Notes under the pieces: generated by a model
Told to the model about the DNA's origin: nothing
Databases searched by the model: none
What the model saw: only the letters and a program-made list of their open reading frames with translations
Made by a program: the position numbers and the translations under genes
Shown here: piece after piece, positions 6,761-40,904 of the stretch
Position numbering within the stretch: the stretch's first letter is position 1
Layout of the letters: each line of letters begins with the position of its first letter
Virus record (IMG/VR): IMGVR_UViG_3300032046_000075
Location: 1 to 40,904 of that record
DNA: 40,904 nucleotides
Reading direction: 5' to 3' (one strand)
Source: a virus

Positions 6761-7020
6761 GGCGTAAACCTCTTTTGAAGTTGGATATCCAGTATCCTCT
6801 TCGCCGCCGACAGCGCCGCGAAGACCTCCGCCTCCGAACCCTCAATCAAGACCTCCTTCTCCCCATGCGCATTCACCACGTCCAACCGACGCACCCGGCG
6901 ACTCATCACCTGGGACTCATATGTCCCATACACCACCCGGCCCACGGGGTGAAGAAACAGCGACACACCCGACGCAGACGCCACATCCGCCACAAGACCG
7001 CGAAGACGATCAGTTTTCAC
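6757..7020 (-). CDS. Hypothetical protein (87 aa)
   Basis: Starts at a GTG overlapping the methyltransferase stop (GTGA) and ends overlapping the next ATG. The protein is alpha/beta with a basic middle (SRRVRRLDVV) and ends in KRFTP, echoing the GFTP end of the upstream gene. No family recognised. The tight coupling supports it as real. Confidence 0.65.
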   Translation of the reverse strand: MKTDRLRGLVADVASASGVSLFLHPVGRVVYGTYESQVMSRRVRRLDVVNAHGEKEVLIEGSEAEVFAALSAAKRILDIQLQKRFTP

Positions 7021-7547
7021 GGCGTGAACCCCCTGCGAACCAACTTAACCCACCACGTCACCCCCTTTCCTACAGCACTTTTACTTTTCCAGCTCTGTTT
7101 AAAAATAGGTTTAAACTCAGTAAATAGGGTTAGAATAGGATCTATTTGATATTCATCAGTGTCGCACCATTTTAAACAAATTCTAGGTGAAATAATTGCT
7201 AATGCTTGTTGCGCTTTTAATAATTCAACTCGAAGAGAGTATTTAGTACTAAATATAGACCACCAAGACCCAGCTTTCTCTTTAGGGTCACAGTGAACAT
7301 CTCGATAAAAGGGACCATGTTGACCGGAATAAAATGGTGGATCAAATATAGCGCAGTGAAAGTAGTCTGCGGGGAAGTGCTTTGGCAGGTCTCGCCACTC
7401 GCAGAGCAGATCAGGCGCAATCCTCAAGTTGGGCTCCTTATCCGTGAAAATCACGTCGTCCCTCATCTTATCCTTACCCCAGATGTGGCGATTCCCCGCC
7501 GTACAATCCAAAATATGTGCATGGGCTTCTTTTGCATAACTTCCCAC
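7017..7547 (-). CDS. DNA adenine/cytosine-N4 methyltransferase, N-terminus probably frameshifted
   Basis: A 176-residue open frame with SAM-binding motif I DCTAGN near residues 14-19 and catalytic motif IV DPPF near 69-72. This order fits small phage-type N6-adenine or N4-cytosine DNA methylases. The frame opens only at a GTG (7547) with a Shine-Dalgarno-like GGAGG too close. In the next frame, a TTG at 7582, preceded by GAGGTGA at good spacing and overlapping the previous gene's end, encodes PVGFSAEAWEVMQKKPMHI. That would join motif I naturally if one base were added at the A4/T4 run at 7510-7513. The true gene is therefore probably 7017-7582 with an indel (sequencing error, mutation or programmed shift). 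Confidence 0.75.
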   Translation of the reverse strand: MGSYAKEAHAHILDCTAGNRHIWGKDKMRDDVIFTDKEPNLRIAPDLLCEWRDLPKHFPADYFHCAIFDPPFYSGQHGPFYRDVHCDPKEKAGSWWSIFSTKYSLRVELLKAQQALAIISPRICLKWCDTDEYQIDPILTLFTEFKPIFKQSWKSKSAVGKGVTWWVKLVRRGFTP

Positions 7548-7588
7548 GCCTCCGCGCTAAAACCCACGGGAACATCAACCAACGGCCT

Positions 7589-7732
7589 TCACCTCGGCTC
7601 CACCCAATACTCATCAACCTTTTCCCCCTTCTTCACCAGCGGCCTCCGCCACAGGTACAGCCCACCCGCCACCGCGCACTCCCGCCGCCTAGCCAGGCCC
7701 GTAGGCGCCGCATGAGGACCCAACTTAGCCAA
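7589..7732 (-). CDS. Small basic protein (47 aa)
   Basis: TTG start at 7732, 1 nt after the Cas4-like stop, with AGGGGAGG as ribosome site. Residues are basic and Gly/Trp containing (ARRRECAVAGG, LYLWRRPLV), ending VEPR. It fills the gap between the nuclease and methyltransferase, and its stop lies inside the ribosome site of the proposed longer methyltransferase. No family recognised. Confidence 0.55.
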   Translation of the reverse strand: MAKLGPHAAPTGLARRRECAVAGGLYLWRRPLVKKGEKVDEYWVEPR

Positions 7733-13164: not shown

Positions 13165-13853
13165 GGGCTTCCCAGTGTTATCGGTGGGTGTATAGGAACC
13201 CCGATGGATCCTACCACAGCGAGAATGGGGGCGTGACGTGGCGCCTCGGCGAGTGGGTGAAGCACGCCGGCCCCCTACGCCTCTGCAAGAGTGGTCTGCA
13301 TGGCTGCCGAGACGCCCGTGATGCCCTTGATTACTCGGGCTACGGGGACGTGTTCATGGTAGCTGAGTACCGGGGGAAGGCGTCGAGAAGGAGGCCCGGT
13401 GGGGATACGAAGTTCTGCACCGGGGAGATGCGCCTCCTCTGGGAGGTCCCCGAGGGGGTGATCAGGCGCGCCGCGCTGGGCTTCGCGGAGCACGTCTACC
13501 CTCTCTGGGAGAAGGAGTACCCCGATGACTCGAGGGTCCGCGTGAGCCTTGACGCTACAAGGGCGTACCTTGACGATCCTACTCCTGAGAATGAGGTTAA
13601 GATGAACGAGGCTACTGAGGCTACTGGGGCTGCTGGGGCTGCTGGGGCTGCTGGGGCTGCTGGGGCTGCTTGGGCTGCTTGGGCTGCTTGGGCTGCTGGG
13701 GCTGCTGGGGCTGCTGAGGCTGCTAGGGCTGCTGGGGCTGCTGGGGCTGCTGAGGCTGCTAGGGCTGCTGGGGCTGCTGAGGCTGCTAGGGCTGCTGAGA
13801 CGAAGTGGCAACGTGACCACTTCAAGCAACTCATCAAGGAGGCTTCCCCGTGA
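13161..13853 (+). CDS. (xAA)n repeat phage-type protein, DUF7666-like N-terminus
   Basis: A 230-residue protein starting at a GTG inside GTGA. Residues 1-145 show the pattern of phage proteins with 'GGVTW ... LCKSGLHGCRDARDAL ... VAEYRG', which resembles DUF7666. Residues about 150-213 are an uninterrupted array of three-residue units GAA/WAA/EAA/RAA, encoded by a 9-bp GCTGCTGGG-type repeat. The C-terminal WQRDHFKQLIKEASP is charged. Similar Ala arrays follow this N-terminal domain in many phage proteins; their function is unknown. The array will form a long Ala-rich helix or collapse region. Repeat length changes keep the frame, so length variants should be tolerated. Confidence 0.75.
   Translation: MRASQCYRWVYRNPDGSYHSENGGVTWRLGEWVKHAGPLRLCKSGLHGCRDARDALDYSGYGDVFMVAEYRGKASRRRPGGDTKFCTGEMRLLWEVPEGVIRRAALGFAEHVYPLWEKEYPDDSRVRVSLDATRAYLDDPTPENEVKMNEATEATGAAGAAGAAGAAGAAWAAWAAWAAGAAGAAEAARAAGAAGAAEAARAAGAAEAARAAETKWQRDHFKQLIKEASP
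13608..13799 (+). repeat. 9-bp tandem repeat array (about 21 units)
   Basis: Units of GCTGCTGGG with one- or two-base variants (TGG, GAG, AGG in the third codon) run without interruption. All variation falls in the third codon of the unit, giving G, W, E or R. Blocks GAA-EAA-RAA recur as higher-order repeats, indicating growth by slippage and unequal exchange. Confidence 0.9.
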
Positions 13854-16788: not shown

Positions 16789-17715
16789 TTAATCCTCATT
16801 CTTTTGACTCTCCACGACTCTCCTTATGCCATCCTCAATCTTCACCTGTGGCGTCCACCCGAGTATTCTCCGCGCTATGGAGCAATCGTAGCTCATCCTC
16901 TGAATCTCCCCCAGGGAGCGCGGCCTAGCCTCATACTTCACGGGTTTATCGAGGACGCGGCACACCGTTTTCAGGGCATCCACCACGGAGGTTTCCACTC
17001 CACTACCCAGCAGAATCGGCCCCACGGATTCCTTCACCTCCGCGCCTTTAACGAGGGCGTCCACAATATCGCCCACGTAGATGAAGTCCCTCGTTTGCTG
17101 ACCGTCCCCCGTTATGTAGGGTGTGTCTCCGCGCTTGAGTGTGTCTATAAATGTGGCGACTACGGGGTTCCACTCTGAGGAGACGCGTTGCCGGGGACCG
17201 TAGACAGTGGCGAATCTGAAGATGGTGTACGGTATCCCGTAGGCTTTGGCGTATGCTTTGATCATGTGCTCCGCCGCCAGCTTATCCACGTCATAGGGAG
17301 TTGTGGGGTTCTCGGGGTTTCCCTCTTTTATTGGCTGAATCGCTGAGTCGTAGATGCCTGAATTACTCGAAAATATCACCCGCGCCCCACATCGGCGCGC
17401 ATATTCAAGCATCATCACAGTTCCGATTAGGTTCACTTCCACGTCTCGAATCGGGTTCACATAGCTGCGGCTACGGGGCCAACAGGCGAGGTGATAGATT
17501 ACGTCGGCGTCGCCCCAGTTGAACCGCTTATCCAGTTTACTAGAGATGTCCTGTTGGATGAAGTTTATTTTCCCCGAGTCTAGGGGACCCTGTATATTAG
17601 TTAATGATCCATTACTGAGGTCGTCAATCACCGTCACGTCGTCACCCCGCGCCACCAGGCGTTCAACTAAGTGTGATCCCACGAAACCGCAGCCGCCGTC
17701 CACAATAATCCGCAT
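16789..17715 (-). CDS. NAD-dependent nucleotide-sugar epimerase/dehydratase
   Basis: A 308-residue extended short-chain dehydrogenase. Rossmann motif GGCGFVGSH (residues 7-15), acidic NAD-binding residue at VIDDLS, Ser cluster SSNSG (116-120) and catalytic YDVDK (141-145). YGPRQR and the C-terminal LGEIQRMSYD...ILGWTPQ are typical of UDP-glucose 4-epimerase or dTDP-glucose 4,6-dehydratase relatives. Length is normal. It probably makes an NDP-sugar for the glycosyltransferase in the same cluster. Exact substrate cannot be told. Last gene of the cluster, 1 nt after its neighbour. Confidence 0.9.
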   Translation of the reverse strand: MRIIVDGGCGFVGSHLVERLVARGDDVTVIDDLSNGSLTNIQGPLDSGKINFIQQDISSKLDKRFNWGDADVIYHLACWPRSRSYVNPIRDVEVNLIGTVMMLEYARRCGARVIFSSNSGIYDSAIQPIKEGNPENPTTPYDVDKLAAEHMIKAYAKAYGIPYTIFRFATVYGPRQRVSSEWNPVVATFIDTLKRGDTPYITGDGQQTRDFIYVGDIVDALVKGAEVKESVGPILLGSGVETSVVDALKTVCRVLDKPVKYEARPRSLGEIQRMSYDCSIARRILGWTPQVKIEDGIRRVVESQKNED

Positions 17716-17716
17716 T

Positions 17717-18238
17717 TTATTTCACCTCATCATTAAACGGAACATAGTATATTAGGAAGCTTCCCCCATCCCCAAGGGTGTTAGCGAAGAAGTCTACCTG
17801 TAGTACCTTCCCGGCTTCAACGTAGTAGTAGAAGCCTCGGGGAAGTATAACCGTTGCTGTGGCTTGTCCACCTGTTTGGCTGTAGATTGCGCTTAGGTGA
17901 AACATCGTGTCATTACTATAGGTGTCAACAGAGAAGTCATGTTTACCTGTGGATAATAGTATCTCAATTCCCTGCGTGGCTGAGACGCATGAAATTAGGC
18001 TCGCTCCAATCACCATCACCGGTTCATCGAAAACTATCTCTTGGATGTGATTGGACCAGCCCTGCTTCTCCCCCACTAGGATGTATTCGATTGTCTTCAC
18101 CTCTTTGGCGGTGGATGGGTTATTAACCTCGTAGGTGTTCTGGTAAAAGTAGTCGCTACAATTTATTTCGTCTATCCTAAAAATTAGTGTTGTTTGAAGC
18201 AGAATAATTATCACTAGAAGAGCCTTAACGGTATTCAC
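17717..18238 (-). CDS. Membrane-anchored exported protein (173 aa)
   Basis: GTG at 18238 shares GTGA with the methyltransferase stop. Residues 4-21 are a hydrophobic anchor or signal (VKALLVIIILLQTTLIF). The rest is beta-rich (EYILVGEK, VMVIGASLISCV, TATVILPRGFYYYVEAG, FLIYYVPF), like a small extracellular jelly-roll or virion-surface domain. No family recognised. It lies inside the glycan cluster, so it may be the protein that is decorated or an assembly partner. Confidence 0.65.
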   Translation of the reverse strand: MNTVKALLVIIILLQTTLIFRIDEINCSDYFYQNTYEVNNPSTAKEVKTIEYILVGEKQGWSNHIQEIVFDEPVMVIGASLISCVSATQGIEILLSTGKHDFSVDTYSNDTMFHLSAIYSQTGGQATATVILPRGFYYYVEAGKVLQVDFFANTLGDGGSFLIYYVPFNDEVK

Positions 18239-18888
18239 GGCGTTTTCGCCTCTATGAAGCACCCCAACGAGACACTATTTCCATCTATGTGGTAAAACCG
18301 CGTAATCCGGAACCCGTGGCCGCGTAGAAGCAGCGACAGTTCATCATAGGTGTAGTGGTGGGGGTGATCTATATCCCCCGGCGTGTGACGGTGGTAAAGC
18401 GTCTCCCAGAGGTAAAGCGTCTTCACCCCAGCCCCTTTAAGCCGTTTAATCGCTGTTATAGGGTCTGCTATGTGGTCAAACGTCGTGACAAACGCGGCCG
18501 CATCCAGGGGGGGTAGTTCGATGTCCTCGATTTTTCCCCGCTTGAACTCTGATAGCCACGGGATAGGCTTCAACTGGGGAAGAGGGTCAACCCCGAGGAT
18601 ATATCCCTCCCCCCGAATCAGGGGGAGATACCCCGCCTCACCGTAGCTTACCCCCGCGAACACGCCGTTACCGCATCCCACGTCAACCATCCGCGAAGGC
18701 ATACCCACGAAGACGCTGAAATGCCGCCCCACAGACTTTACATACTCTATATACCGGGGATCCATTGGGTTTCCAGCCCAAGAGACGTAGCGCCTCTGCG
18801 CTCTCTCCCACCGAACATTAACGGGCACCAGCCCCGCGTAGACGTGGTTAAACGCTTGTCTCAAGTATCTTACGCATCTCTTGAACAT
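18235..18888 (-). CDS. Class I SAM-dependent methyltransferase
   Basis: A 217-residue protein from the ATG at 18888 with GGAGGG upstream. SAM motif I is MVDVGCGNG near residues 67-75; ILGVDPLP follows as motif II, and FVTTFDHI as motif IV. HHYTYDELSLLLRGHGFRI is the usual C-terminal helix-strand of Methyltransf_11/23 enzymes. It overlaps the upstream gene by about 41 nt. In a glycan cluster the likely substrate is a sugar or lipid-linked intermediate. Substrate unknown. Confidence 0.8.
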   Translation of the reverse strand: MFKRCVRYLRQAFNHVYAGLVPVNVRWERAQRRYVSWAGNPMDPRYIEYVKSVGRHFSVFVGMPSRMVDVGCGNGVFAGVSYGEAGYLPLIRGEGYILGVDPLPQLKPIPWLSEFKRGKIEDIELPPLDAAAFVTTFDHIADPITAIKRLKGAGVKTLYLWETLYHRHTPGDIDHPHHYTYDELSLLLRGHGFRITRFYHIDGNSVSLGCFIEAKTP

Positions 18889-19243
18889 CAAGGCCCTCCT
18901 TCTCCGCGAGTGCCATAAGCGTCTTCCACATAGGTATCATCACGGGGGTTAGCTTCGTCTGGCTGTAGGGGTTGCTCTCCACGTTGATTGTCTGCTCGAT
19001 TCGGTAGAATGGCATCTTCTTGAAGTGAAACCACCCCGCCAACGCGCCACTAGGGTAGACCACCACGACAAGGGCTAGGCCAAACTCTAGGACTCCGGGG
19101 AAGACGCTCTTTAATATGGGGATGTTTTGAATCGCTAGGTAGTAGACGGTTGTGCAGAGGCTTATCATGGTGAGGGGTAAACTGAGGTATATGCTGTACC
19201 CGGTGCGGAAGTAGTAGAAGCTGCGCATCAGGAAGTTGATCAA
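18848..19243 (-). CDS. Membrane protein (131 aa)
   Basis: TTG at 19243 overlaps the previous stop (TTGA). Two predicted TM helices: residues about 18-37 (YLSLPLTMISLCTTVYYLAI) and 50-70 (LEFGLALVVVVYPSGALAGW), followed by a soluble amphipathic C-terminus (MWKTLMALAEKEGLDVQEMRKIL). No family recognised. Together with the 59-residue gene it may form a membrane complex in the glycan pathway. Confidence 0.65.
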   Translation of the reverse strand: MINFLMRSFYYFRTGYSIYLSLPLTMISLCTTVYYLAIQNIPILKSVFPGVLEFGLALVVVVYPSGALAGWFHFKKMPFYRIEQTINVESNPYSQTKLTPVMIPMWKTLMALAEKEGLDVQEMRKILETSV

Positions 19244-19419
19244 TTTTGAATCTCCCTTATCGTATCCAGTACGTAGCTTATTATGTACAGTATCGGCTCG
19301 TAGAACCACGGCGGAGTATAGCTTAAAACCGTCGCGCCCAGCGTCACCAAGTAGACGGAAAAATATGGGGTGTAATTATAATTATCCTTGGCGCTTTTTC
19401 GGGATGGTTTCTCAGTCAA
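19240..19419 (-). CDS. Small membrane protein (59 aa)
   Basis: Not an obvious ORF because it starts with TTG at 19419, sharing TTGA with the glycosyltransferase stop; its own TGA overlaps the next TTG in the same way. After a basic N-terminus (EKPSRKSAKDNYNYT) it has one long or two short hydrophobic helices (YFSVYLVTLGATVLSY, EPILYIISYVLDTI). The repeated TTGA coupling supports it. Confidence 0.6.
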   Translation of the reverse strand: MTEKPSRKSAKDNYNYTPYFSVYLVTLGATVLSYTPPWFYEPILYIISYVLDTIREIQN

Positions 19420-20507
19420 TTTAAAGCCTCTTCGTAGATTTTCTTAAGCCGCTCAGCTACCATCGAATAACTTAGGTGGCGGAGCGCGAAGCTCCGACCC
19501 GCTTCGGATAGGCGTCGACGCAGTGTATCACTCTCAAGGCTATGCAGTCCTTCGAGGATTTCGGCTTCAGATGAGGCGTTCACACACGGGGGAGCCTCGC
19601 CGAAGTGTTCACTAGCGGTCGGTGCGAAGTAGATCATGAGGGATGCGCCACAAGCCATAGCCTCAAAACCCGTGGTCCCAGAGGCACCCAGCGTAAACTG
19701 GTCTAGAACCGCGTCCACGTTTTGATACCGCTCTATCAGCGCGGGTTTGCTCATCGGGGGAACCCATGTCACCGAGTCTTTAACAGGTTCAACTATGCGG
19801 TGTGCCTCCTCAACATCCTCTGAGTACCCCCAGTCAACGAGGGTTAGATGCGCCTTAGCCCCACTCTCAACATATTTTACGTATGTGCGGAGTAGGCGAT
19901 CGTTTCCCTTAACGTCGAAGACCATGCGCGCTGGGTGAAGAAGCTCAAGAATCGAATTATCCCTTTCTCCGCGAGGACAGTACCGATCAGTGTTAATCGC
20001 GAATGGCACAAACTCCATGCGCTGGGGATGAACGCCCGCAACCATCTCAGCCGTATCCGTGTTAGTGTAGGTAACACACTTTGCTTCTCGGTAGGTCCTC
20101 AGCCCCAGTTTCACGCGGTTACTATTCCTCAAGGCGCCGTAGCCTTGGCGGATGAAACCCGCCTCATACACTAGATATGGAGTCAGAGAGAATGAGAGGT
20201 GAAGCACCGTGGGAAAGTGAAGGTGAAGTAGATCGTAGCCGCGCGTTATCTTGTTAAGCTGAATTACCTTCCTTATGAAGTTCCGCCGATCACCCTTAAC
20301 GGTTTTAACCCAATCCGGCGAGGGGGGTAATTCATCGAGGCGCATCTTGTAGGGGTCGCCGTTTATTCGGTGGATCTCCCACTGGGGAAGACTCATACCG
20401 AAGTCGTTTTCATCAATGATCAGCTCAGCGTCAACGCCGGCTCCGCGAAGAGCCTCAACGCAGGCAAAGCCGTCGTTCGCCATATTACCGACGTGACATA
20501 CGCGCAT
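19416..20507 (-). CDS. GT-B (GT4-like) glycosyltransferase
   Basis: A 363-residue protein from ATG 20507 with GGAGGTGG upstream. N-terminal Rossmann features: VCHVGNMANDG, DLLHLHFP. The acceptor-side segment YTNTDTAEMV and FVPFAINTDRY lead into the donor domain, with the loop GASGTTGFEAMACG carrying the conserved Glu of retaining GT4 enzymes. Length and order match family 4 glycosyltransferases. It would transfer a sugar made by the epimerase onto a lipid or protein. It overlaps the asparagine-synthase gene end by 23 nt. Confidence 0.85.
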   Translation of the reverse strand: MRVCHVGNMANDGFACVEALRGAGVDAELIIDENDFGMSLPQWEIHRINGDPYKMRLDELPPSPDWVKTVKGDRRNFIRKVIQLNKITRGYDLLHLHFPTVLHLSFSLTPYLVYEAGFIRQGYGALRNSNRVKLGLRTYREAKCVTYTNTDTAEMVAGVHPQRMEFVPFAINTDRYCPRGERDNSILELLHPARMVFDVKGNDRLLRTYVKYVESGAKAHLTLVDWGYSEDVEEAHRIVEPVKDSVTWVPPMSKPALIERYQNVDAVLDQFTLGASGTTGFEAMACGASLMIYFAPTASEHFGEAPPCVNASSEAEILEGLHSLESDTLRRRLSEAGRSFALRHLSYSMVAERLKKIYEEALN

Positions 20508-21267
20508 CAAGCCACCTCCCAGTTAAATAGGCATTAACCAGCATATTCGCCTCACGGTGCGTAGCAGGGGCGTCAACGTGAAGCGTGGGTTTTATCTCCG
20601 CGTCCCACACAAGCGGGTTCTCCCAGTTCACCCGCCCCGCATACTTTGGCCTCTCAAGGACCTCCGCCGGCAGGTGCCCCCGGTAGGCTTGGCGGAGGTT
20701 CCACTTATCCATCGGCGCATCATGGGGATCAACCCAGTACTTCAGCGTCTCGCTGATTGGAAGCCCGATAAATGGGGTATGTATTTTCACCCCATAGATT
20801 GTAGCGAGTTGCCTATGCGTCGGTAGGCTCCACTCAAGGACGCCACCCCAGTACTCTTGATAGGACACGCGGGGCTTGTTTATATATCCGCCGAAGTGCT
20901 CATCCAATCCCTCAGCTATATAAATATTCTCCGCGCCGATACTCTTTGCCAACCTGTAACCGAAGACGGGCCATAGGTTGAACCTTGGGAAGTCGAGAAG
21001 GGGCGCAGTCTCCGCGAATGTCTTTAATATGTCTCTGGCGGTGACTTCGTGGTATCGTGCTCCGTAGTATTTGGCGACTTCGTAGGATCCTCGATACTCC
21101 ATCTCCCCCGGTAACCGGATGTGGATGGCATCCACGGATTCAACTGTAAGTTCCGTCAGGTGCTTGAGTAGAATAGTGGAATCTAAGCCGCCGCTTATGA
21201 ATACGGTGGGGCGGTGAGTCGGTTTTATAGATGCGCGGATAAGCCCACGCAATGCCTTATAATTCAT
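20485..21267 (-). CDS. Asparagine synthase-type amidotransferase domain without glutaminase
   Basis: A 260-residue protein consisting of the AsnB C-terminal PP-loop domain: SGGLDST (25-31), AEGLDEHFGGY (near 118-128), THTPFIGLP and the C-terminal KWNLRQAYRGHLPAEVLERPKYAGRV pattern (conserved Arg/Pro/Lys; shown only in part). The N-terminal glutaminase domain of AsnB is absent, so ammonia must come from another protein or from solution. Such short proteins in surface-glycan clusters (WbpG-like) amidate sugars or make lasso-like linkages. ATG overlaps the RHH stop by 4 nt. Confidence 0.85.
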   Translation of the reverse strand: MNYKALRGLIRASIKPTHRPTVFISGGLDSTILLKHLTELTVESVDAIHIRLPGEMEYRGSYEVAKYYGARYHEVTARDILKTFAETAPLLDFPRFNLWPVFGYRLAKSIGAENIYIAEGLDEHFGGYINKPRVSYQEYWGGVLEWSLPTHRQLATIYGVKIHTPFIGLPISETLKYWVDPHDAPMDKWNLRQAYRGHLPAEVLERPKYAGRVNWENPLVWDAEIKPTLHVDAPATHREANMLVNAYLTGRWLDARMSRR

Positions 21268-21445: not shown

Positions 21446-21610
21446 ATGGGTAAAGTTGCTGAGAAGCTGTGGGAAGCCAACTCAAAGCTCCCCGCTAACG
21501 TGAAGAAGGGAACAGACCTCATTATACGGGGCGCGTTAAAGTGGCGTCAATCCTCCCAGAGGCGTGGAAAAGAGTTTGTTAAGAATCAGCGCAAGAAGTT
21601 GAGGATTTAG
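21446..21610 (+). CDS. Small basic protein (54 aa)
   Basis: The only plus-strand gene between two minus-strand blocks. Its own TATA box and CCCTAGT element precede the ATG. The protein is strongly basic (KKLRI, KWRQSSQRRGKEFVKNQRKK), likely a nucleic-acid binder or small regulator. Its stop overlaps the end of the spike gene by 4 nt on the opposite strand. No family recognised. Confidence 0.6.
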   Translation: MGKVAEKLWEANSKLPANVKKGTDLIIRGALKWRQSSQRRGKEFVKNQRKKLRI

Positions 21611-24600
21611 CGCCTCCGCGCGAGTAGGATGAAGACCACCCCGGCTACTACCACGATTATGAGCCAGTAGGGGAGACCGCCGCCAACTGCGCCGAGCCAC
21701 GGATCACCTGAGACTATGAGGTTCAGCATCACAGACGCGGCGCGTGATACCACGAAGTTGAAGACGCCGAGGGCACCACTACTAAGCATCAACGCCAAAG
21801 ACGCGGCCTTGTAAACGTCAAGCCCCTTGGCAGCCGCGAGGCTTATAGCGATTGTCTGCGCGGCGGCGCGGGTATAGTTAATGGCGACAACGATGACGCT
21901 CCGCGTCGCATCGCTTAGCCAAGTTATTCCCTGCGCGGCGGCGCGGGTGAACTCGCTGAACACCGAGGCCGCGTTAGCCACTGTGAATCCCTGAGTCGCG
22001 TCGCGTAGCGCCTCAATGAGCCTACCCCCGCTTAGGATTGTGACTATTCCCTGAGTAGCTGATCGTCCTACTTCGATGAGTTTACCCGCCCCATTTGTGA
22101 TGCTGATGCTAAGTCCAACGAGGGCGGACACGATTTGGGCGCTTATCCCCTCTAGGCTGACGCTGATGTTTAGCGTCACGTTTTTCAAGACCTCGATTAG
22201 GTGACTCACGTAGAGGTTCATCATAATGCCTTGGGTAGCGACTCGCCCAAACTCAGCCAACCTATCCGCGCTAAGCGTCGCCGCGATTGTCTGTGAGGCT
22301 ACTTTGCCTACTTCGATGAGTTTACCCGCCCCATTTGTGATGCTGATGCTAAGTCCAACGAGGGCGGACACGATTTGGGCGCTTATCCCCTCTAGGCTGA
22401 CGCTGATGTTTAGCGTCACGTTTTTCAAGACCTCGATTAGGTGACTCACGTAGAGATTCATCATAATGCCTTGGGTAGCGACTCGCCCAAACTCAGCCAA
22501 CCTATCCGCGCTAAGCGTCGCCGCGATTGTCTGTGAGGCTACTTTCCCCACTTCGATTAGGCGAGCCGCCGAGTTTCCGAGGGTTAGACTTACTGAGGTG
22601 GCAACATCCAGTATGATGCCCCTAGCCCCGGCGACTGTGAGGCCTATATTCTGTGAGGCTGCTTTGCCTACTTCGATGAGTTTAGTCGTCGCGTCTGCGA
22701 AGGTGAGTCCCTGCGTTGCTGACCTTAGCCACTCACCTAGCCTCATAGTGCTTGACGCGGCGCCTAGGCTCAGGGCGGCGTCTCTGAGGTATTCTTGTAG
22801 CCCCGCTAGGAACTCTGTGAGGCTTCCCGAGGTGAGTGTGAGCGTCTGCGCGGCGGATCGAAGGTAGTCCCCGAGGTATGAGGCGGCGTTGTTAAGCGTC
22901 ATGCCCTGCGTCGCGGCTCGCAGCGCTTCGTAGAGTCTCGCGCCGCCCTGCGTTATGGTGATGCTGAGGCTTATGGAGACTTCGACGATTATCCCTCGGA
23001 GGCTGTTGGCGGCGAAGGGTATGGCCTGCGCCGCGGCCCTAGTGGCTTCAATTAGGCGCGTTGCCGCGGGGGATAAGCTGAGTATCTGTGAGACGCCGCG
23101 GACCCACTCATTGAAGGCGTCTGCAGCGTTTCCGAGTGTTAGGGCCTGTGATGCACTTTTACCCGCCTCAAGTAGCCGCGCGGCTGTATTCGTCACCGTT
23201 AAGCCCAGTGACGTTGTAACTGAAGATATGAAGGTTCTCACTGCATCCGCTGAGAAGATTATGCTCTGAGATGCGCTTTTACCTATCTCAACCAGCCTCA
23301 CGGCGGCGTTTGTGAAGGTGAAACTCGCCGTGGCTGCTCTGAAGTACTCCGTGACCCCAGTGATGAACTCCGCGAGTGTTGAGCCCGCCCAAGTTATTCC
23401 CTGGGATACTATTCGGGTGAACTCGGCTAGGCGGTCTGAGCTGAGGGCGGTGGAGATGGCTTGGCTTACCGCCTTTAGCACCTCTATTAGGCGCGCTGCG
23501 TTGGGGGCGAATGTGAGTGTAGTGGTGGCTGCCCGCATCCACTCAAACAGGCCCCCGACTCCGCTGGTTAATGTCACGCCCTGGGTTACGCCCCTTAGCA
23601 TCTCCGCGAGACGCCCAGCCGCACCGCTAAAAGTGATGCTCTGAGCCGTATCTAAAGATACTTCGATTAGTCGGGTGATGGCGCTCGTCATCGTTAGGGA
23701 TTGAGCCGCTGCTTTCCCAACGTCAAGTCCACGCGCTGCTGAGAACGTGCCCATGATTGCCTGTGATGCGGCTCGCGTTATCTCAATGAACTTCGCCGCT
23801 GATGAGGATAGGGCTATTGCCTGCGTTGATGCTCTTAGATATTCCCCGAATCTGGCGGTGGATGATGCCAACGCGACGGCGAGGTTCACGGCCTTATCCA
23901 TTATCAGTCCACGCGCTGAGTTTAGTCCCATCGTGAGGGCGAGTGTGGCTGCTCTGCCGCGTTCAAGAAGGTTTGCCACGCTGGATGCTAGGCTGAGGCT
24001 CTGGGTTGTGGCGCGGGTAGCGGTGAGTAATCTCGTAGAGGAGACGCCCATTGTTAGGGATTTTGCCCCAGTTTTTGTGACTTCGATGAGTCTCGTAGCG
24101 GATTTGGTGAATGTCAGGCTTTTTGATGCGGCTTTGTAGCTGAATATGAGTCGGAACTCGGCTGTGTAGGTGTCCGTGTCCGTGGCGGTTGCGTCGTCGG
24201 TTGTTATTGTTTGCACGTTGCAGTTTCCGAGGGCGGGTACTTGGGTGAACTTGATCTTGAAGGCTATCTTGTCGGTGTCGGTGTCTATGTTGACTCTTAC
24301 TGAGCCTGACTCTGAGCTTATGCCGTTTGGGTCGCTTGTCTCGCTGAATACGCCGGTGCTCTGTGTCCAGAGGTAGACGCTGGTTTTGCTGTCGCTTGTC
24401 GTGATCGTGATTTGAACGGTATAGAGGTTGGCTACTAGGTCAACATCGGTTACGGTCATGTTGATCCAGCCGAGGACATTGTAGTCGAAGGTGGCGGTGC
24501 TGTCGCAGGCGTCGTTTACGGGGGCGGTGTTTGTTATGGTGGGTTTGAAGTAGCCCGCGTACATGAAGTAGCCTGCCGTGTTAAGCCCCGCGTAGAGTTC

Positions 24601-27252
24601 CACGGCTGCGGTTGCGCCCGTCTCCACGGTGACCGTGTAGCCGTTGTACTCTGTTCCGGCGGCGGATTCGCTTTCGTGGACGAGTATGTAGCGGCTGATC
24701 GCGCTCCCCGATTTCCGCGCGCCTACGTTGTATTCGGCTCCTCCGTCGCCGTTGCAGAGGATGAAGCTGGCGAAGGTGTTTGTAGTGATAGGAAAACGAC
24801 TTTTGAGTAGATTACCGTTCGGGGCTGTCCCACCGTATATCTCACCGTTGAGGACGCAGAGAGACGGAATCTGTGTCTCTGAGACATATATTGGTGCTAC
24901 CTGAGTCCACGCGTTGACGCCGTTCCACTTCAGCAGATTACCGCTCGGGTACGTCCCACCGTATATATTGCCGTTGAGGACGCAGAGAGACATAATATCT
25001 GTCTCTGAACCATATATTGGTGCTACCTGAGTCCACGCGTTGACGCCGTTCCACTTCAGCAGGTTGCCATTGGGACCTGTCCCGCCGTATATCTCATCGC
25101 CGAGGACGCAGAGAGACCGAATATCTGTCTCTGAACCATATATTGGTGCTACCTGAGTCCACGCGTTGACGCTGTTCCACTTCAGCAGATTACCGCTCGG
25201 GTACGTCCCACCGTATATCTCATCGCCGAGGACGCAGAGAGACCGAATATATGTCTCTGAGCCATATATTGGTGCTACCTGAGTCCACGCGTTGACGCCG
25301 TTCCACTTCAGCAGATTACCGCTCGGGTATGTCCCGCCGTATATCTCATCGCCGAGGACGCAGAGAGACAGAATCTGTGTCTCTGAGCCATATTTCGGTG
25401 CTACCTGAGTCCACGCGTTGACGCCGTTCCACTTCAGCAGATTACCGCTCGGGTATGTCCCGCCGTAGATCTCGCCGTTGAGGACGCAGAGAGAATAAAT
25501 CTGTGTCTCTGAACCATATATTGGCGCTACCTGAGTCCACGCGTTGACGCCGTTCCACTTCAGCAGGTTGCCATTGGGACCTGTTCCGCCGTAGATTTCG
25601 CCGTTGAGGACGCAGAGAGACCGAATATATGTCTCTGAACCATATTTCGGTGCTACCTGAGTCCAAATCGATGATGATTTTAATTCCCATGTCGCTGATG
25701 CATCCACACCAAACTGAGCCCAATCCTCAACGAAGTCAACGGCGCTGTCAAAGTATCCGAGGTCGTAGACAAGTTTCGTTGTGGTGTCGCTGATATAATA
25801 CTCGATAACATCTGAGACGTCGCTCTTCACATAGAACATGAAGCCTGATTCACCACCTGCCTCCGGCTCGTGAATCACGAGGCTACGGGTTAAATCAGCG
25901 CCACCATTTGTCCTGATGCCCCCAGTGAAGCCAACATCCTGCTCCTGTGAGGACAGGATCACACTATGAACCAATCCACCATGAGTACCAAGGTCAAGGT
26001 CTGTCCACGTGTTAATCGTCGCCACCGCGTTGCTGCCAAACGCCTCCGTGAAGTCACAGTTCGTAAAGTAGCCCAGTATCCTGAAGTTATCTAAATCACT
26101 TACATCACTGTGATAAGCCTCAATAATACCCGTAGTTGAGTGAACTTTGACGGGCATCGTATAGAGAACTTGACCACCCCCCTCAGCCTCATGAATCAAA
26201 ATGTAGCGGTTCAGGGCACTTCCGTCAGTACGAATACCCATCGTGTTCTCTGTCCCAGTCTGCTCCATACAAAACGCAATCTCTACAATCGCACCCTTTG
26301 GTATCCCTTTATTTGTGGTGACGTCGTAATTACCCCAAACTCCATCGCTTCCAAACGAGGTGAAAGTATCAATCATCTCCGTGTATGCAATGTCAGGGTC
26401 AATCAAAGCTGCATTGACAGGAAAAATGCTCACGGTTCCCTTACCATTCCAGAACGGTTCTGGGCCAACCTGACGCTCCGTCGCACCGTAATCCTCGGTG
26501 CCCACACTCAGCCACATCCCATCAGCGTTCAGCGTCACATCCTTCCCAAGGTACAGCTTACTCTTAGCCCCGACACTCTGCGGAACCGTCATCGTCGTTA
26601 TGTCTGGATAAGTCGCGTTAACATTCGTCGTCAACTCATCGTTAATATAATACCTGTAGTTTGATGCTGGCACCACATCCCAGATCCATCGGAAATCGCC
26701 GAGGTTCCACTGAGCAGACTTCGTGAACGAGACGCTTACCTTCGGCGGCTTCAACGGATCAGAGCAATCAAAGTCAATGACAACGCTCCCCATCACCTTC
26801 TTCTTATCCATGACACTGTACATCAGCCTGTAAAAAGTCGAGTTATGGATAGGAGAAGCCACGCCCGTGAAGTCAATCAACGGAAGCCATGTTTGCCCCG
26901 ATAAATACTGCAGCACGTAGACACTCTTCGACACCACCTCCTCGCCATAGTGGTTCACGAACTTCAGAATATTACCGGGCTGAAGCCAAGTATAAGACCC
27001 GTAAGGCGTAGAGTAAACATAATTGGCCCCATCGTAACTCACAGACGAAACATTGGTGCCATGATTCCTAGAAGCGACACGCTCATGACCAAAAGGCACG
27101 TAGCCGAAGTCACCTGAAAGCCCCGAAATACCAGATTCACCGCTGGATAAGATCGGCGACCCCCCGTTCCACGGCTCCGCGAAGCTGATTGGCAGGCTGC
27201 TAACTAGAAGTAAGGCTAATACAACTAAGCTAGGGAGGCGGCGACGCGACAC
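21607..27252 (-). CDS. Giant virion spike/adhesin with seven-repeat propeller
   Basis: An 1881-residue surface protein from GTG 27252. Signal peptide at 1-25 (LVVLALLLVSSLPISFA); C-terminal TM anchor about 1857-1877 followed by RRR, so most of it is outside. Residues about 270-600 hold repeated beta domains (motif GIRT-GSAL-RYILIHEAEGGG ... ILGYF). Residues 530-823 are seven 42-residue repeats (WTQVAP-YGSET-I-SLCVL-EIYGGT-P-GNLLKWN), likely a seven-bladed propeller, interrupting the third copy of that domain. Residues about 900-1030 match an Ig-like domain of the 29555 protein. Residues about 1035-1840 are about 24-residue repeats (AATQ-LTF---AARLIEV-K), a probable stalk, with an 80-residue exact duplication. 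Role in host attachment is inferred. Confidence 0.85.
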   Translation of the reverse strand: MSRRRLPSLVVLALLLVSSLPISFAEPWNGGSPILSSGESGISGLSGDFGYVPFGHERVASRNHGTNVSSVSYDGANYVYSTPYGSYTWLQPGNILKFVNHYGEEVVSKSVYVLQYLSGQTWLPLIDFTGVASPIHNSTFYRLMYSVMDKKKVMGSVVIDFDCSDPLKPPKVSVSFTKSAQWNLGDFRWIWDVVPASNYRYYINDELTTNVNATYPDITTMTVPQSVGAKSKLYLGKDVTLNADGMWLSVGTEDYGATERQVGPEPFWNGKGTVSIFPVNAALIDPDIAYTEMIDTFTSFGSDGVWGNYDVTTNKGIPKGAIVEIAFCMEQTGTENTMGIRTDGSALNRYILIHEAEGGGQVLYTMPVKVHSTTGIIEAYHSDVSDLDNFRILGYFTNCDFTEAFGSNAVATINTWTDLDLGTHGGLVHSVILSSQEQDVGFTGGIRTNGGADLTRSLVIHEPEAGGESGFMFYVKSDVSDVIEYYISDTTTKLVYDLGYFDSAVDFVEDWAQFGVDASATWELKSSSIWTQVAPKYGSETYIRSLCVLNGEIYGGTGPNGNLLKWNGVNAWTQVAPIYGSETQIYSLCVLNGEIYGGTYPSGNLLKWNGVNAWTQVAPKYGSETQILSLCVLGDEIYGGTYPSGNLLKWNGVNAWTQVAPIYGSETYIRSLCVLGDEIYGGTYPSGNLLKWNSVNAWTQVAPIYGSETDIRSLCVLGDEIYGGTGPNGNLLKWNGVNAWTQVAPIYGSETDIMSLCVLNGNIYGGTYPSGNLLKWNGVNAWTQVAPIYVSETQIPSLCVLNGEIYGGTAPNGNLLKSRFPITTNTFASFILCNGDGGAEYNVGARKSGSAISRYILVHESESAAGTEYNGYTVTVETGATAAVELYAGLNTAGYFMYAGYFKPTITNTAPVNDACDSTATFDYNVLGWINMTVTDVDLVANLYTVQITITTSDSKTSVYLWTQSTGVFSETSDPNGISSESGSVRVNIDTDTDKIAFKIKFTQVPALGNCNVQTITTDDATATDTDTYTAEFRLIFSYKAASKSLTFTKSATRLIEVTKTGAKSLTMGVSSTRLLTATRATTQSLSLASSVANLLERGRAATLALTMGLNSARGLIMDKAVNLAVALASSTARFGEYLRASTQAIALSSSAAKFIEITRAASQAIMGTFSAARGLDVGKAAAQSLTMTSAITRLIEVSLDTAQSITFSGAAGRLAEMLRGVTQGVTLTSGVGGLFEWMRAATTTLTFAPNAARLIEVLKAVSQAISTALSSDRLAEFTRIVSQGITWAGSTLAEFITGVTEYFRAATASFTFTNAAVRLVEIGKSASQSIIFSADAVRTFISSVTTSLGLTVTNTAARLLEAGKSASQALTLGNAADAFNEWVRGVSQILSLSPAATRLIEATRAAAQAIPFAANSLRGIIVEVSISLSITITQGGARLYEALRAATQGMTLNNAASYLGDYLRSAAQTLTLTSGSLTEFLAGLQEYLRDAALSLGAASSTMRLGEWLRSATQGLTFADATTKLIEVGKAASQNIGLTVAGARGIILDVATSVSLTLGNSAARLIEVGKVASQTIAATLSADRLAEFGRVATQGIMMNLYVSHLIEVLKNVTLNISVSLEGISAQIVSALVGLSISITNGAGKLIEVGKVASQTIAATLSADRLAEFGRVATQGIMMNLYVSHLIEVLKNVTLNISVSLEGISAQIVSALVGLSISITNGAGKLIEVGRSATQGIVTILSGGRLIEALRDATQGFTVANAASVFSEFTRAAAQGITWLSDATRSVIVVAINYTRAAAQTIAISLAAAKGLDVYKAASLALMLSSGALGVFNFVVSRAASVMLNLIVSGDPWLGAVGGGLPYWLIIVVVAGVVFILLARRR
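22067..22545 (-). repeat. 240-bp tandem duplication in the spike stalk
   Basis: 22067-22306 and 22307-22545 are identical except one transition (22216 g versus 22456 a). The unit encodes 80 residues and keeps frame. Near-identity, including silent sites, indicates a very recent duplication. Confidence 0.93.
24784..25665 (-). repeat. Seven 126-bp repeats encoding propeller blades
   Basis: Seven consecutive 126-bp units, highly similar at the DNA level. Differences cluster at a few codons: the residues after SET (Y/Q/D) and after the next Ile (R/Y/L/M/P), NG versus GD, and G/Y/A before P(N/S)G. The last unit has lost the C-terminal WNGVNA. Confidence 0.93.
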
Positions 27253-27273: not shown

Positions 27274-27972
27274 TTAAGATACTTGTATCGTCCAAGTCAC
27301 AGTGATTTTGTCTCCACTGGCGAGGGTAACGGGCGCGAAGGTATCAGCGCATAGCATCGTATTATTCTCACTACCAGTAGTCGTCCAGTGAAGACCCGTA
27401 GCCTGAACAGCAACGTAAGCTGCGTCGGCGGTGAACTGCTTGATGACCGTCCACGTGCCAACCCCAGTAGACGCATAGGCGCCCTCCGCCTTATCAAGGC
27501 CGCCGGCGGTGTCAATCTCACTCCACAGGCGGTGATCTGCTGCAGCGGGGCTATGGGAGCTACGCGTTAAGGCGATCCACTTCGCAATTGTCGCCGCACT
27601 AGGTGAATCACTAAGCTGATCCTCAATCCAATCCGCGCCATCGTTCATAAGCACCCCCACGTGGCGGCTCCAGAAGATGCTGTAGGTACCATCGGGCTCC
27701 TGCCACATCTTACCCGTAGCCTGCCACACAACCGAGGTCAGCGGCGCAAGCATATACTCCACCCCAACCATATAGTTCTCGGGGTTGAGTGTATTAATCA
27801 CGGTGGATGTATCAGTCCTGAACCCGATTTGCTGCCCGAAGCCCGGCCCCACGCCCCCGTACTCACCCGTGATGAAGGTGAATAAGTTACCCATTAGGAG
27901 CCCACCGAGGATGAGCCCTACTATGCCTACCGCCGCGAATCCAGCCGCCGCCGTTTTCTTATCATTGAACAT
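27274..27972 (-). CDS. Virion membrane-anchored surface protein (232 aa)
   Basis: ATG 27972. N-terminal TM helix at about 12-34 (FAAVGIVGLILGGLLMGNLF) with a short cytoplasmic basic end, then a beta-rich ectodomain. The C-terminus VTLASGDKITVTWTIQVS resembles the end of the 31530 protein (VAIPAGNSIRVVFTISL), suggesting related folds. It sits directly upstream of the spike gene, so it may be a spike partner or minor surface subunit. No named family recognised. Confidence 0.65.
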   Translation of the reverse strand: MFNDKKTAAAGFAAVGIVGLILGGLLMGNLFTFITGEYGGVGPGFGQQIGFRTDTSTVINTLNPENYMVGVEYMLAPLTSVVWQATGKMWQEPDGTYSIFWSRHVGVLMNDGADWIEDQLSDSPSAATIAKWIALTRSSHSPAAADHRLWSEIDTAGGLDKAEGAYASTGVGTWTVIKQFTADAAYVAVQATGLHWTTTGSENNTMLCADTFAPVTLASGDKITVTWTIQVS

Positions 27973-29554: not shown

Positions 29555-31519
29555 CTATGGCACGAAGATTCCCACGAAGGTCAGGATCATGTTTACCACG
29601 AAGTTGAAGACGGTGAAGCTCCAGTTCCATATCTCCCCAATGATGTATGACGCGACCTGTAGGTCACGTATCGCTACCTCTAGGGCGCCTACCCCCATCC
29701 TCCTAGCCCTCCTTGACAAGCCATCGAACCAAATTATGAAGGCGAAGACTGGTATAACGTCAATCCACGCTGAGACGTTAAAGGCTGCGAACCAATCCGT
29801 TCCGCCGCCGGTGCCGTGGGCGACGTTGTTTATGGCTGTGAAGAGGGCTACGAAGAAGGTCGCTACCCTCGTTACCCAGCTCGTTATGGTCCCCGCTAGG
29901 TAGAAGATTAGGGTGAACAGCCCCACCACCATGTCTCTGATAGCGGTGGCGCTTTGGGTGAACCACCCCGTGAAGGCGGTTATCGTGAGGTAAACTTGCG
30001 CGAAGTCTACTCCGAAGAACGTGAAGCCCTGCAGGATCTGGCTTACGACGCCGAAGTCGGGGCTGACGCTGATTGCCACGGAGTCGCCGTCGACCGCGTA
30101 GCCGTCACTGTAATCCGGGGCCAGGTCGAGCCAAGCGTAGTAGAGAACGGAGCCCAACGAGGCGGGGGTCGTCACCGTCACGTTGAAGAAGCCGTTCACT
30201 ATGGTAGCGTCTGTGCCCTGAAGCGTGGGTTCATCATCAAATATCTTAACTGCGGTGAACTGTGTGTTAGGTGGATAACTCGTGGATGCGGTGATGGATG
30301 CGATGTCGAGGGCATAGCGGATGTATCCAGTTATCTCCACGGGGCTGCTGATGGTTGTCGATGTAACGTTTCCGGTGAAGTCCCGCGTCACGAGGCGGGT
30401 AACCACGTCGAAGTAGTTAGTTTGCGCGGTGGTCCAGCCAACGGTGTGGCCGCCCACATCACTGGCCCACACTTCGAGTTCACAATCATTCTCTTGAGCG
30501 TAGTCCCACTCGAAGCGAATCATCAACGTTAAGGTGCCGACGTCTCCATCCTCCGCAAAACTACATAAAATTGCGTCGAGGTCAATAATTTGGTCACCCA
30601 TGATTATATTATACGTCGCTATACCATCCAGATTTGTTGCATTTACAAGCCACCTAATAGTCGCTCCCTGCGTTCCCCGAACCGATATTTCCTGTATGTC
30701 AGTTGCCCCATTGATGTCGGTTATCACTGTTTGGAAGGCATAGTATTTCTTCATGGCGTAGCAGTTATCGGCATCGTCTAAATCCGTGGTGGTTGACGAA
30801 CTTATTATGGGGGTAGTACCCGTTACTAACGTGAACTCGGGGGAATAGGTGTCAACGTCTGACGCTGAGGTATCATCCGTCGTGGTGGCTTCCACATCGC
30901 AGGCCCCGGCGGCTCCGCCTGTGAACTTGAATTGGAAGGCAATCTTATCGGTGTCCGTGTCGACGTTCTCCCTGACGCTTGAGCCGAGGGTGCAGATGTT
31001 GCTCGCGTCGGATACTTCGCTGAAGACTCCGGTGCTCTGGGTCCACTTGAGGGTGAAGGATTCTGCGCCACCTATGGTGCTGACCTGAATATCAACTGTG
31101 GAGAGATCAGCGACTAAATTTAAGTCCGTGACCGTGATGTTTACCCAACCATTGATAGTTAGATAGAATAAGGTTGTGCTATTACAGGCATCGTTTGTGG
31201 GGGCACTTGATTCGCTGTCGTAAGCGATTGTTGATATTGTAATTTTGGGGCTGAGTAACTTTTGGTCTGATAGTACACCGGAGGTAGATAGTGTCGCTGG
31301 GGCTAGAGGCGTTTCTTGGTCTGACGGTGCACCGGAGGTAGATAGTGTCGCTGGGGCTAGAGGCGTTTCTTGGTCTGACGGTGCACCGGAGGTAGATATC
31401 GTAAGCGCGTTAAGAATATTTTGTGAGTATGCAGTTGCATAAACTAAGATGGGCGCTAGAAAGACTAGGATTATGATGATTGGGGTTAACCATTTTTTTT
31501 TACCTAGCCTAGCTCCCAC
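29555..31519 (-). CDS. Large surface/membrane virion protein (654 aa)
   Basis: N-terminal signal or anchor at 10-29 (LTPIIIILVFLAPILVYATA). Residues about 41-90 carry an 18-residue Ser/Pro/Thr repeat (STSGAPSDQETPLAPATL), a flexible and possibly glycosylated linker. Residues about 105-235 are an Ig-like domain clearly homologous to residues 900-1030 of the spike (shared DACxST, WTQSTGVFSE, NVDTDTDKIAF, TTDD). Further beta domains follow. The last 200 residues hold several hydrophobic segments (YLTITAFTGWF, VVGLFTLIFYLAG, VATFFVALFTAI, VIPVFAFIIWF, FVVNMILTFVGIF). Probably a polytopic virion surface protein that works with the spike. Confidence 0.7.
   Translation of the reverse strand: MGARLGKKKWLTPIIIILVFLAPILVYATAYSQNILNALTISTSGAPSDQETPLAPATLSTSGAPSDQETPLAPATLSTSGVLSDQKLLSPKITISTIAYDSESSAPTNDACNSTTLFYLTINGWVNITVTDLNLVADLSTVDIQVSTIGGAESFTLKWTQSTGVFSEVSDASNICTLGSSVRENVDTDTDKIAFQFKFTGGAAGACDVEATTTDDTSASDVDTYSPEFTLVTGTTPIISSSTTTDLDDADNCYAMKKYYAFQTVITDINGATDIQEISVRGTQGATIRWLVNATNLDGIATYNIIMGDQIIDLDAILCSFAEDGDVGTLTLMIRFEWDYAQENDCELEVWASDVGGHTVGWTTAQTNYFDVVTRLVTRDFTGNVTSTTISSPVEITGYIRYALDIASITASTSYPPNTQFTAVKIFDDEPTLQGTDATIVNGFFNVTVTTPASLGSVLYYAWLDLAPDYSDGYAVDGDSVAISVSPDFGVVSQILQGFTFFGVDFAQVYLTITAFTGWFTQSATAIRDMVVGLFTLIFYLAGTITSWVTRVATFFVALFTAINNVAHGTGGGTDWFAAFNVSAWIDVIPVFAFIIWFDGLSRRARRMGVGALEVAIRDLQVASYIIGEIWNWSFTVFNFVVNMILTFVGIFVP
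31262..31397 (-). repeat. 54-bp tandem repeat in the 654-residue gene
   Basis: Two full units (31262-31315, 31316-31369) and a 28-bp partial unit. The second and third units match more closely than the first, so the array grew by in-frame duplication of an 18-residue linker. Confidence 0.9.
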
Positions 31520-31529
31520 TAGAAGTCAC

Positions 31530-32735
31530 CTAGAGGGATATAGTGAAGACGACCCTGATCGAGTTCCCGGCGGGTATAGCTACTAGGGTAAACGTGTCTC
31601 TCCAAAACATGTAGGTGTCTGTTGTGGTTGTTCCCCCAAGGAAGAAGGCGGCTTCAACGACATCTTGGGCTGAGGTGCAGAGGACGTCGGCTATAATAGT
31701 TACTGTGGCTCCGCTTATCGCGGGGATTGGGGCGGGCGTAGTCATTGTCTCCACTGCGGCGATGAGGTTGGTGTGGGTTCTTGCCGGCGCCGTGTTTGCG
31801 GTGCCTATACCAACCCTAGCTCCACTAACCGTAGCGGAGCTTGGCCAGACTGTTACTACTGAAGGACTTTGATAAGATGTTGAATAATATATATATATAG
31901 TATCTGTATTTCCTAATTGATCTTTAAGAGAAACGTAAACAGAACCTCCATCTGCTACGGTTGTAAAGAGGGCGGCTAGGAACCTCCCAAAGTTGTCGCT
32001 AAACTCTACGCTTGTAAGCTCAATAAAATAGGTGATCACGCAAGTATCCAAGTTATGTACGACAACCCCGGCGAACGTGTCTCTGAAATGAATGAACGTG
32101 TATTCTGTTACTCCTGTGTCTGGGATCCAGACGCATCCTAGGGCCGCCTCTGTGATTGTTCTGGTTGCGGTAATCGGGATGGTAGCCGTTATGGTGACGT
32201 TACCAGTTGCAGAAGTCCATGTAGGATATCCACTGGTAATCGCCGTATAGGATTCAACCTGATTTTCAAGGTTATAATCTGAAACCGTTGGGGCTGTGCT
32301 TCCAATTCCGATTCCTATGACTCCGCCTTTAGCCGCTGTCCCTGAACTAGAATCGGAATAAGTATTTACACTATAAACAGTGCTAGTAGATCGGGTCTGT
32401 ATTACTCTAGCTGCGTTAGTCGTATCCTTTAAGGATACGGTCTTAGAGTTTTGATTATAAACGGGCACAAACACCCCACACAAGAAGATCCTGAAATTAT
32501 TGAGGACAAGATCATCCTTCTTAACCACCGAATCCCTCAACACCCCATTAGAATCATACACTTGGATTTGAAGAGTAGTCTGAATCTTCTTCCAAGGAGC
32601 ATCCACCGAGACCCTTACCTCACCAGTTTTCTGGGCTTCAAGCATCTGGAAAACGACGCCGCCCCCAGAGGCTATGAGTAGGATGAATACAGTAGATAAG
32701 ACCACCAACTTCATTCTACCAGACGCAAAACTCAT
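31530..32735 (-). CDS. Virion surface protein with duplicated beta domain (401 aa)
   Basis: ATG 32735. TM anchor at about 9-30 (KLVVLSTVFILLIASGGGVVF). The ectodomain holds two copies of one beta domain: VSLKDTTN ... IGIGSTAPT ... VTITATIPI ... EAALGCVW ... HFRDTFAGV (copy 1) and VSLKDQLGN ... VGIGTANTAP ... VTIIADVL ... EAAFFLG ... FWRDTFTLV ... VVFTISL (copy 2). The pattern recalls repeated tail-fibre or pilus-like domains in phage and archaeal virus surface proteins. The C-terminus resembles that of the 27274 protein. Likely a virion surface subunit. Confidence 0.7.
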   Translation of the reverse strand: MSFASGRMKLVVLSTVFILLIASGGGVVFQMLEAQKTGEVRVSVDAPWKKIQTTLQIQVYDSNGVLRDSVVKKDDLVLNNFRIFLCGVFVPVYNQNSKTVSLKDTTNAARVIQTRSTSTVYSVNTYSDSSSGTAAKGGVIGIGIGSTAPTVSDYNLENQVESYTAITSGYPTWTSATGNVTITATIPITATRTITEAALGCVWIPDTGVTEYTFIHFRDTFAGVVVHNLDTCVITYFIELTSVEFSDNFGRFLAALFTTVADGGSVYVSLKDQLGNTDTIYIYYSTSYQSPSVVTVWPSSATVSGARVGIGTANTAPARTHTNLIAAVETMTTPAPIPAISGATVTIIADVLCTSAQDVVEAAFFLGGTTTTDTYMFWRDTFTLVAIPAGNSIRVVFTISL

Positions 32736-40287: not shown

Positions 40288-40904
40288 ATGACAAGAAAGT
40301 CTCCCTACCGTCACCCAGTTCGAAGCTATACCCGTGAAGGCCACCGCGTAGACAGATATGTGCGCGGCGAAGGCAAGAAACCCGTGGAACCAACAACGCT
40401 TCTATCTAATAACGAACGCAATAATGAGAGAGCCCTTGGATACCGCCGAGTAGCCGAGAGACGCATCCCCATACCTGATCGCCGCCGAGTTCAAGTGGGG
40501 TGGGAAGAACCTCCCGCTGAAACCAAAATGGGTGCCAAAATATATTATAAACCAATAAAATTCAAGGGTGTGGAACGCACCAAGTATGATGCCCAGGGAA
40601 ATTTCTATAAATACATGGAGAGGGTATATCGCAAAACGGGTGAAGGAATTACACGCGATGAGATGTGGGTAAAGCAAATCCCCATCTATCAAGATGCTCC
40701 CATCACTCTTCCCCCACCTGAACCCACAGACAAGAACATGCCCGGACCATACAATCCCACAGACAAGGACATGCCCGGACCATACAATCCCATCACTCTT
40801 CCCCCACCTGAACCCACAGACAAGAACATGCCCGGACCATACAATCCCACAGACAAGGACATGCCCAGACCATACAATCCCATCACTCTTCCCCCACCTG
40901 AACC
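40288..40904 (+). CDS. 5' part of origin-spanning proline-rich repeat protein
   Basis: ATG 40288. Residues 1-37 (TRKSPYRHPVRSYTREGHRVDRYV...) are a basic domain shared with the 88-residue protein at 36372. A charged middle follows (KYDAQGNFYKYMERVYRKTGEGI). From about residue 138 come 30-residue Pro-rich repeats (ITLPPPEPTDKNMPGPYNP TDKDMPGPYNP). The frame continues at position 128 of the window and ends at 320. The repeat count is uncertain because the assembly ends inside the array. Likely an extended virion or adhesin-linker protein; function inferred. Confidence 0.85.
   Translation, partial: MTRKSPYRHPVRSYTREGHRVDRYVRGEGKKPVEPTTLLSNNERNNERALGYRRVAERRIPIPDRRRVQVGWEEPPAETKMGAKIYYKPIKFKGVERTKYDAQGNFYKYMERVYRKTGEGITRDEMWVKQIPIYQDAPITLPPPEPTDKNMPGPYNPTDKDMPGPYNPITLPPPEPTDKNMPGPYNPTDKDMPRPYNPITLPPPE
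40701..40904 (+). repeat. 90-bp tandem repeats in the proline-rich gene
   Basis: Units at 40701-40790 and 40791-40880 plus a partial unit from 40881, continuing at 104-127 after circular closure. Unit 2 differs from unit 1 by one g-to-a change (40877 area). A 30-bp sub-repeat (ACAGACAAG-ACATGCCC-GACCATACAATCCC) occurs twice per unit. Confidence 0.9.
40778..40904. repeat. Terminal overlap, copy 2 (circular closure)
   Basis: Identical to bases 1-127; see the entry there. Confidence 0.85.

Follow-up and report, generated by a model that had tools for sequence, protein, structure and literature searches.

Here we describe a viral spike protein in which a seven-bladed β-propeller is inserted into the third of three tandem copies of a knob domain. 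The resulting 620-residue cassette probably sits at the distal end of a membrane-anchored spike as its host-recognising head, with the propeller carried on a pseudo-trimeric knob and contacting the receptor.

Overall organization of the spike

The spike is encoded in the window, that is, the whole stretch of DNA analysed, which is a complete virus record from a public collection, 40,904 bp long. Its open reading frame (ORF; 21607–27252, minus strand, 1881 aa) reads as starting with a putative signal peptide (residues 1–25) and ending with a putative hydrophobic anchor (residues ~1860–1878) and an RRR tail. The signal peptide is followed by a unique N-domain, unrelated to the N-domain of L013, and then by the cassette. 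The cassette comprises two full knob domains, D1 (26059–26397, residues 286–398) and D2 (25741–26058, residues 399–504), the N-flank of the third domain, D3 (25666–25740, residues 505–529), the propeller (24802–25665, residues 530–817) and the C-flank of D3 (24541–24801, residues 818–904). Right after it come a domain spanning residues 908–1042 (24127–24531) and a shaft-like region of 20-residue repeats with a period of 20/40/80 (21700–24126); all of these features lie on the minus strand. A Pfam search with the spike returned no family. The repeat region includes a 240-bp duplication, 98% identical, at 22067–22557. A 52% identical copy of residues 908–1042 is encoded at 30806–31210 (minus strand), within a neighbouring 654-aa membrane protein (ORF 29555–31519, minus strand), so that this domain is common to two of the virus's surface proteins.

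The propeller splits the third knob domain

An earlier note on this DNA had proposed that two full copies of a repeated domain precede the propeller and that a third copy is interrupted by it. Both proposals hold: D1 and D2 are complete, and D3 is interrupted between its second and third strands by seven blades of ~42 residues each, as seen from uninterrupted relatives, from the placement of the joined flanks in the D3 clade and from the predicted strands. D1, D2 and the C-terminal part of D3 are homologous, with local alignment scores of 103, 99 and 68 against shuffled means of 27–29 (SD 5–6); none of 500 shuffles scored as high.

The N-flank scores weakly when taken by itself (P 0.03–0.2 in the pairwise shuffle test), as would be expected if the two flanks were separate, the 25 residues before the propeller being a linker and the part after it a shorter variant domain; at 25 residues, the flank is too short for its pairwise score to be convincing. 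An HMM built only from the D3 N-terminal parts of 17 propeller-less relatives, with both propeller-bearing proteins left out, found exactly three matches in the window spike and three in the only other propeller-bearing protein, from contig L003; in each protein they mark where D1, D2 and the flank ahead of the propeller begin. Against separate flanks there are also the relatives with an empty site and the two-plus-six predicted strands that add up to eight, and we consider that reading very improbable. The insertion of the propeller into D3 is real and well supported.

Propeller-less relatives and domain copy number

Domain-alignment searches recovered about twenty contigs with the knob domain; single-sequence searches of genome_contigs and cultured phages gave no matches. 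Relatives with the same domain and no propeller, which the earlier note had recommended looking for, were found in the form of 17 other triads from viral and genome contigs, all with the order D1–D2–D3 and an uninterrupted D3. Their insertion site is made up of about 10 residues, LSAYLDQDGR, and in the closer relatives D3 runs on continuously as VE..Q...W..(D)L(S/T)AYLDQDGRV.. when up to nineteen triads are aligned. The window spike and the L003 protein have their propeller at the position of this LSAYLDQDGR loop. These two are the only proteins with an insert at D3, and no other type of insert is present at the site among the 19 triads. When 69 copies of the domain are placed in a tree, the window and L003 sequences obtained by joining the D3 flanks come out as sisters (100/99) within a sixteen-member D3 clade (96/92); the copies group by position as D1, D2 and D3, with weak deep support.

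The knob domain occurs nearly always in threes, a regularity absent from the earlier note. Exactly three copies are present in 19 proteins, nine in L014 and one in each of L025, L028 and L029, the last of which has an apparent long fibre ahead of its domain. The nine copies of L014 are arranged as three groups of three in a 2225-aa protein (L014:5650–12327). We infer that the knob is homotrimeric when the domain is single-copy and a single-chain pseudo-trimer when it is triple-copy. In L010, a propeller-less triad is followed by a different repeat array (~6990–7616; LSSTRVAYID..NDKLETYDWSGTDWTKTGNSLTITGA) that ends at the contig end and is perhaps another propeller type.

Predicted structure of the triad

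The AlphaFold2 model of the window cassette (19 sequences) has a mean pLDDT of 90.2, with eight strands each in D1 and D2 and, in D3, two strands ahead of the propeller and another six behind it. Because D3 reaches eight strands across the insert, the flanks are predicted to form one domain, as the earlier note had supposed, rather than two. The model of the propeller-less triad of L012 (pLDDT 94.7, pTM 0.93) has eight strands or nearly so per domain, with the insertion site taken up by a short helix and a turn, suggesting that the propeller-less triad folds as a single rigid unit.

Among the listed PDB hits of the triad in Foldseek, the best TM-score belongs to a single-chain APRIL–BAFF–BAFF trimer (4zch; probability 1.00, a moderate TMq of 0.43, rmsd 9) and the lowest E-value to the turret protein of the archaeal virus STIV, which has a triple jelly roll (4ind; TM 0.20). 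The triad model resembles both in having three jelly rolls within one chain, but the TM values are low to moderate (0.43 and 0.20, respectively) and no common sequence family was detected. Pfam assigned no family to the triad of the L003 protein or to the L020 triad protein, and in the window, L003 and L020 alike it did not place the triad among TNF/C1q-like knobs. Since the propeller-less triad is modelled as one unit at high pTM and its best TM match is a single-chain TNF-family trimer, the triad may form a single-chain pseudo-trimeric knob.

Blade repeats and variable columns

As the earlier note had read from the repeats, the propeller has seven blades: an HMM finds exactly seven, and TRF on the propeller DNA gives a 126-bp unit repeated 6.8 times. 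Foldseek matches it to WD40-type propellers (TMt up to 0.75), and blade matches, AlphaFold2 strands and Foldseek together identify it as a seven-bladed propeller. DSSP combined with the repeat phase places strand D first and strands A–B–C last, with blade strands at columns 2–5, 13–20, 23–29 and 34–37. Window blades 1–6 are 86–93% identical and blade 7 is 71–78% identical. Near-identical 126-bp units misassemble easily, and the repeats or the blade number could in principle be an assembly artefact; yet in L003, which is another metagenome record, the site likewise holds seven blades, and their sequences are more diverged. An artefact is for this reason extremely unlikely, and on account of L003 we reject a chance or assembly origin.

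Variation among the blades is concentrated in a few columns. In blades 1–6 of the window, 23 of the 42 codons are invariant, synonymous sites included, and across the window blades codons 8, 10–12 and 16–20 likewise show no variation even at synonymous sites. At codons 13, 15 and 29, the changes involve more than one base (codon 15, for example, reads CGG, TAT, CTG or ATG). Over seven propellers, columns 15, 13 and 29 have the highest mean within-protein entropy (0 of 20,000 column permutations as high), and it is on this protein-level test that the variable-column signal rests; for L003 alone, no significant excess of substitutions is seen at these codons on the DNA level (P 0.61), because its remaining codons are diverged as well. 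Not all propellers show the pattern, columns 13, 15 and 29 being much less variable in those of L005 and L006.

By the deduced strand order, columns 13 and 15 start strand A and column 29 ends strand B, which would place all three on the D–A/B–C face. Because the chain enters and leaves on the C–D side, the face with these columns should be turned outward from the knob. We considered a diversity-generating retroelement as the origin of the variable codons and rejected it, there being no RVT_1 reverse transcriptase match in the window record or in that of L003.

Near-identical blades with few hypervariable codons are also a feature of the HIC (high-internal-conservation) propellers of Podospora HNWD sensors, whose WD40 repeats are more than 80% identical and whose propeller bears four diversifying codons on its interaction surface (PMC12222747). 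Window blades 1–6 exceed the 80% identity, and the few hypervariable codons (columns 13, 15 and 29) lie on one face as deduced. HNWD proteins, by contrast, are fungal intracellular immune receptors (NLRs) for which diversifying selection is reported, whereas the window propeller belongs to a viral surface protein known from one sequence of the virus. Amplification of highly repetitive β-propellers from single blades is known, and the parts of these reports available to us describe near-identical, recently amplified tandem blades like those of the window; insertion into a viral knob domain and cassette exchange do not appear in those parts (PMC9218822, PMC6805158).

The same cassette in a tailed virus

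The 72-kb L003 contig encodes terminase, portal, neck, minor tail and tape-measure proteins, and its cassette protein is positioned after the tape measure and a tail protein. The first 620 residues of this protein are 64% identical to the window cassette. Cassette aside, blastp between the two records gave no same-frame match, the remainder of the cassette proteins included; the remaining matches are reverse-strand frames of the cassette. As the cassette is common to both records and nothing else matches, it behaves as an exchangeable unit between virus types.

Relatives of the propeller were found at 21 viral loci, as stand-alone proteins of ~300 aa, as N-terminal parts of tail-tip-like proteins, or fused to or inserted in GP46, Mu Gp48 and Phage-tail_3/Rcc01698 proteins; the queries used retrieved none from 50,697 records of cultured phages. 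The design had been called swappable in the earlier note, a description that agrees with a cassette present in two viruses without other common genes and with related propellers in GP46-, Gp48- and Phage-tail_3-type proteins. The sharing suggests that the cassette is an exchangeable host-recognition head that has been transferred between the two viruses. Separately, L005:7470–12104 and L006:7470–12101 encode near-identical tail proteins in which one propeller blade differs in length and sequence (TYPSGK vs TYTGK), suggesting blade-level recombination.

Genomic context of the spike

The window ends in a 127-bp direct terminal repeat (1–127 and 40778–40904); as this repeat sits within a 33/90-bp tandem repeat in an ORF, circularity is uncertain and may be a repeat effect. 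The phrog_17415, phrog_12 and phrog_58 models (terminase, portal and tape measure), all of which match the L003 contig, had no match in the window, a result that rests on models able to miss divergent proteins. A spindle-shaped virion type was considered for the window virus, given its many small membrane proteins and no tail genes. Queries with its primase or a 122-aa membrane protein retrieved no relative from viral_contigs. A 232-aa window protein (27274–27972, minus strand) is 36% identical to the product of L012:2336–2944, just upstream of the triad gene in that virus, and both this protein and ORF 31530–32735 of the window match phrog_5417 weakly. At 13610–13797, ~21 copies of a 9-bp unit (GGCTGCTGG) encode an Ala/Gly-rich or Ala/Pro-rich stretch in overlapping ORFs.

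The region directly downstream of the spike (16789–21267, minus strand) contains genes of nucleotide-sugar epimerase, methyltransferase, glycosyltransferase and asparagine-synthase-like type, which may together form a cluster for glycans of the virion or of a surface. Such a cluster, together with the signal-like N terminus and the C-terminal hydrophobic anchor of the spike, would also suit a protein that is not on the virion and instead serves on the surface of infected cells, in adhesion or as a superinfection factor. The spike gene, however, stands among genes for putative structural and membrane proteins, and the cassette takes a tail-fibre position in the tailed virus L003; a cell-surface role has accordingly only a small chance of being correct.

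Probable function of the propeller cassette

A receptor-binding head best explains the cassette, as judged from its position, its variability and the analogy with phage receptor-binding propellers, and the suggestion gains strength because the hypervariable columns lie on one face. The receptor-binding protein of Staphylococcus phages 80alpha and phi11 is trimeric, and its platform domain, a β-propeller, has been proposed to bind GlcNAc on wall teichoic acid (PMC7048315). Like the head proposed here, it is a viral receptor-binding protein with a β-propeller, but that propeller is five-bladed, sequential and present once per homotrimer chain, whereas the window propeller has seven blades and interrupts one knob domain of a fused set of three.

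Alternatively, the propeller could be a general structural, docking or enzymatic module, one that binds a further tail or spike protein or cleaves a glycan, say, with receptor contact elsewhere, for example in the triad or the N-domain. β-propellers do have structural roles in phage tails, as in the SU10 nozzle protein (PMC9509320), and the present family also occurs as stand-alone proteins and in several unrelated tail proteins. The reverse pattern of variation would be expected of a conserved docking or catalytic surface, however, from that seen here, in which three columns on one face vary and codons 8, 10–12 and 16–20 are invariant, and no enzyme family was matched in Pfam. We regard a general module as unlikely, if somewhat less so than a cell-surface role.

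For a receptor-binding head, we envisage that the three jelly-roll-like domains of one chain would pack as a single-chain pseudo-trimeric knob, where an ordinary fibre tip has three identical chains. The propeller would have entered the strand 2–3 loop of the third domain in an ancestor of the window virus and the virus of L003; with the trimer made of one chain, a single bulky propeller could be carried. Tethered by its bottom (C–D loop) side, the propeller would turn its D–A/B–C face outward, and the receptor would be contacted by a ring of variable residues, located in each blade where strand A begins and strand B ends. Blade re-amplification would keep the scaffold uniform while contact residues diverge, and the whole cassette would have moved between a tailed virus and a virus without recognised tailed-virus genes. 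More tentatively, and with the odds somewhat against so complete a picture, the cassette may be an exchangeable head whose re-amplified propeller, with a hypervariable contact ring, sits asymmetrically on a pseudo-trimeric knob and is traded across virion architectures, as a retroelement-free viral counterpart of fungal HIC propellers.

The spike offers a natural example, with empty-site relatives for comparison, of a bulky recognition module added to a three-part fibre knob without being tripled, and of one head common to two viruses whose other genes are unrelated. Specificity should lie in three positions of each blade, and the spike connects host recognition by viruses with a way of diversifying that is known in fungal immune sensors.
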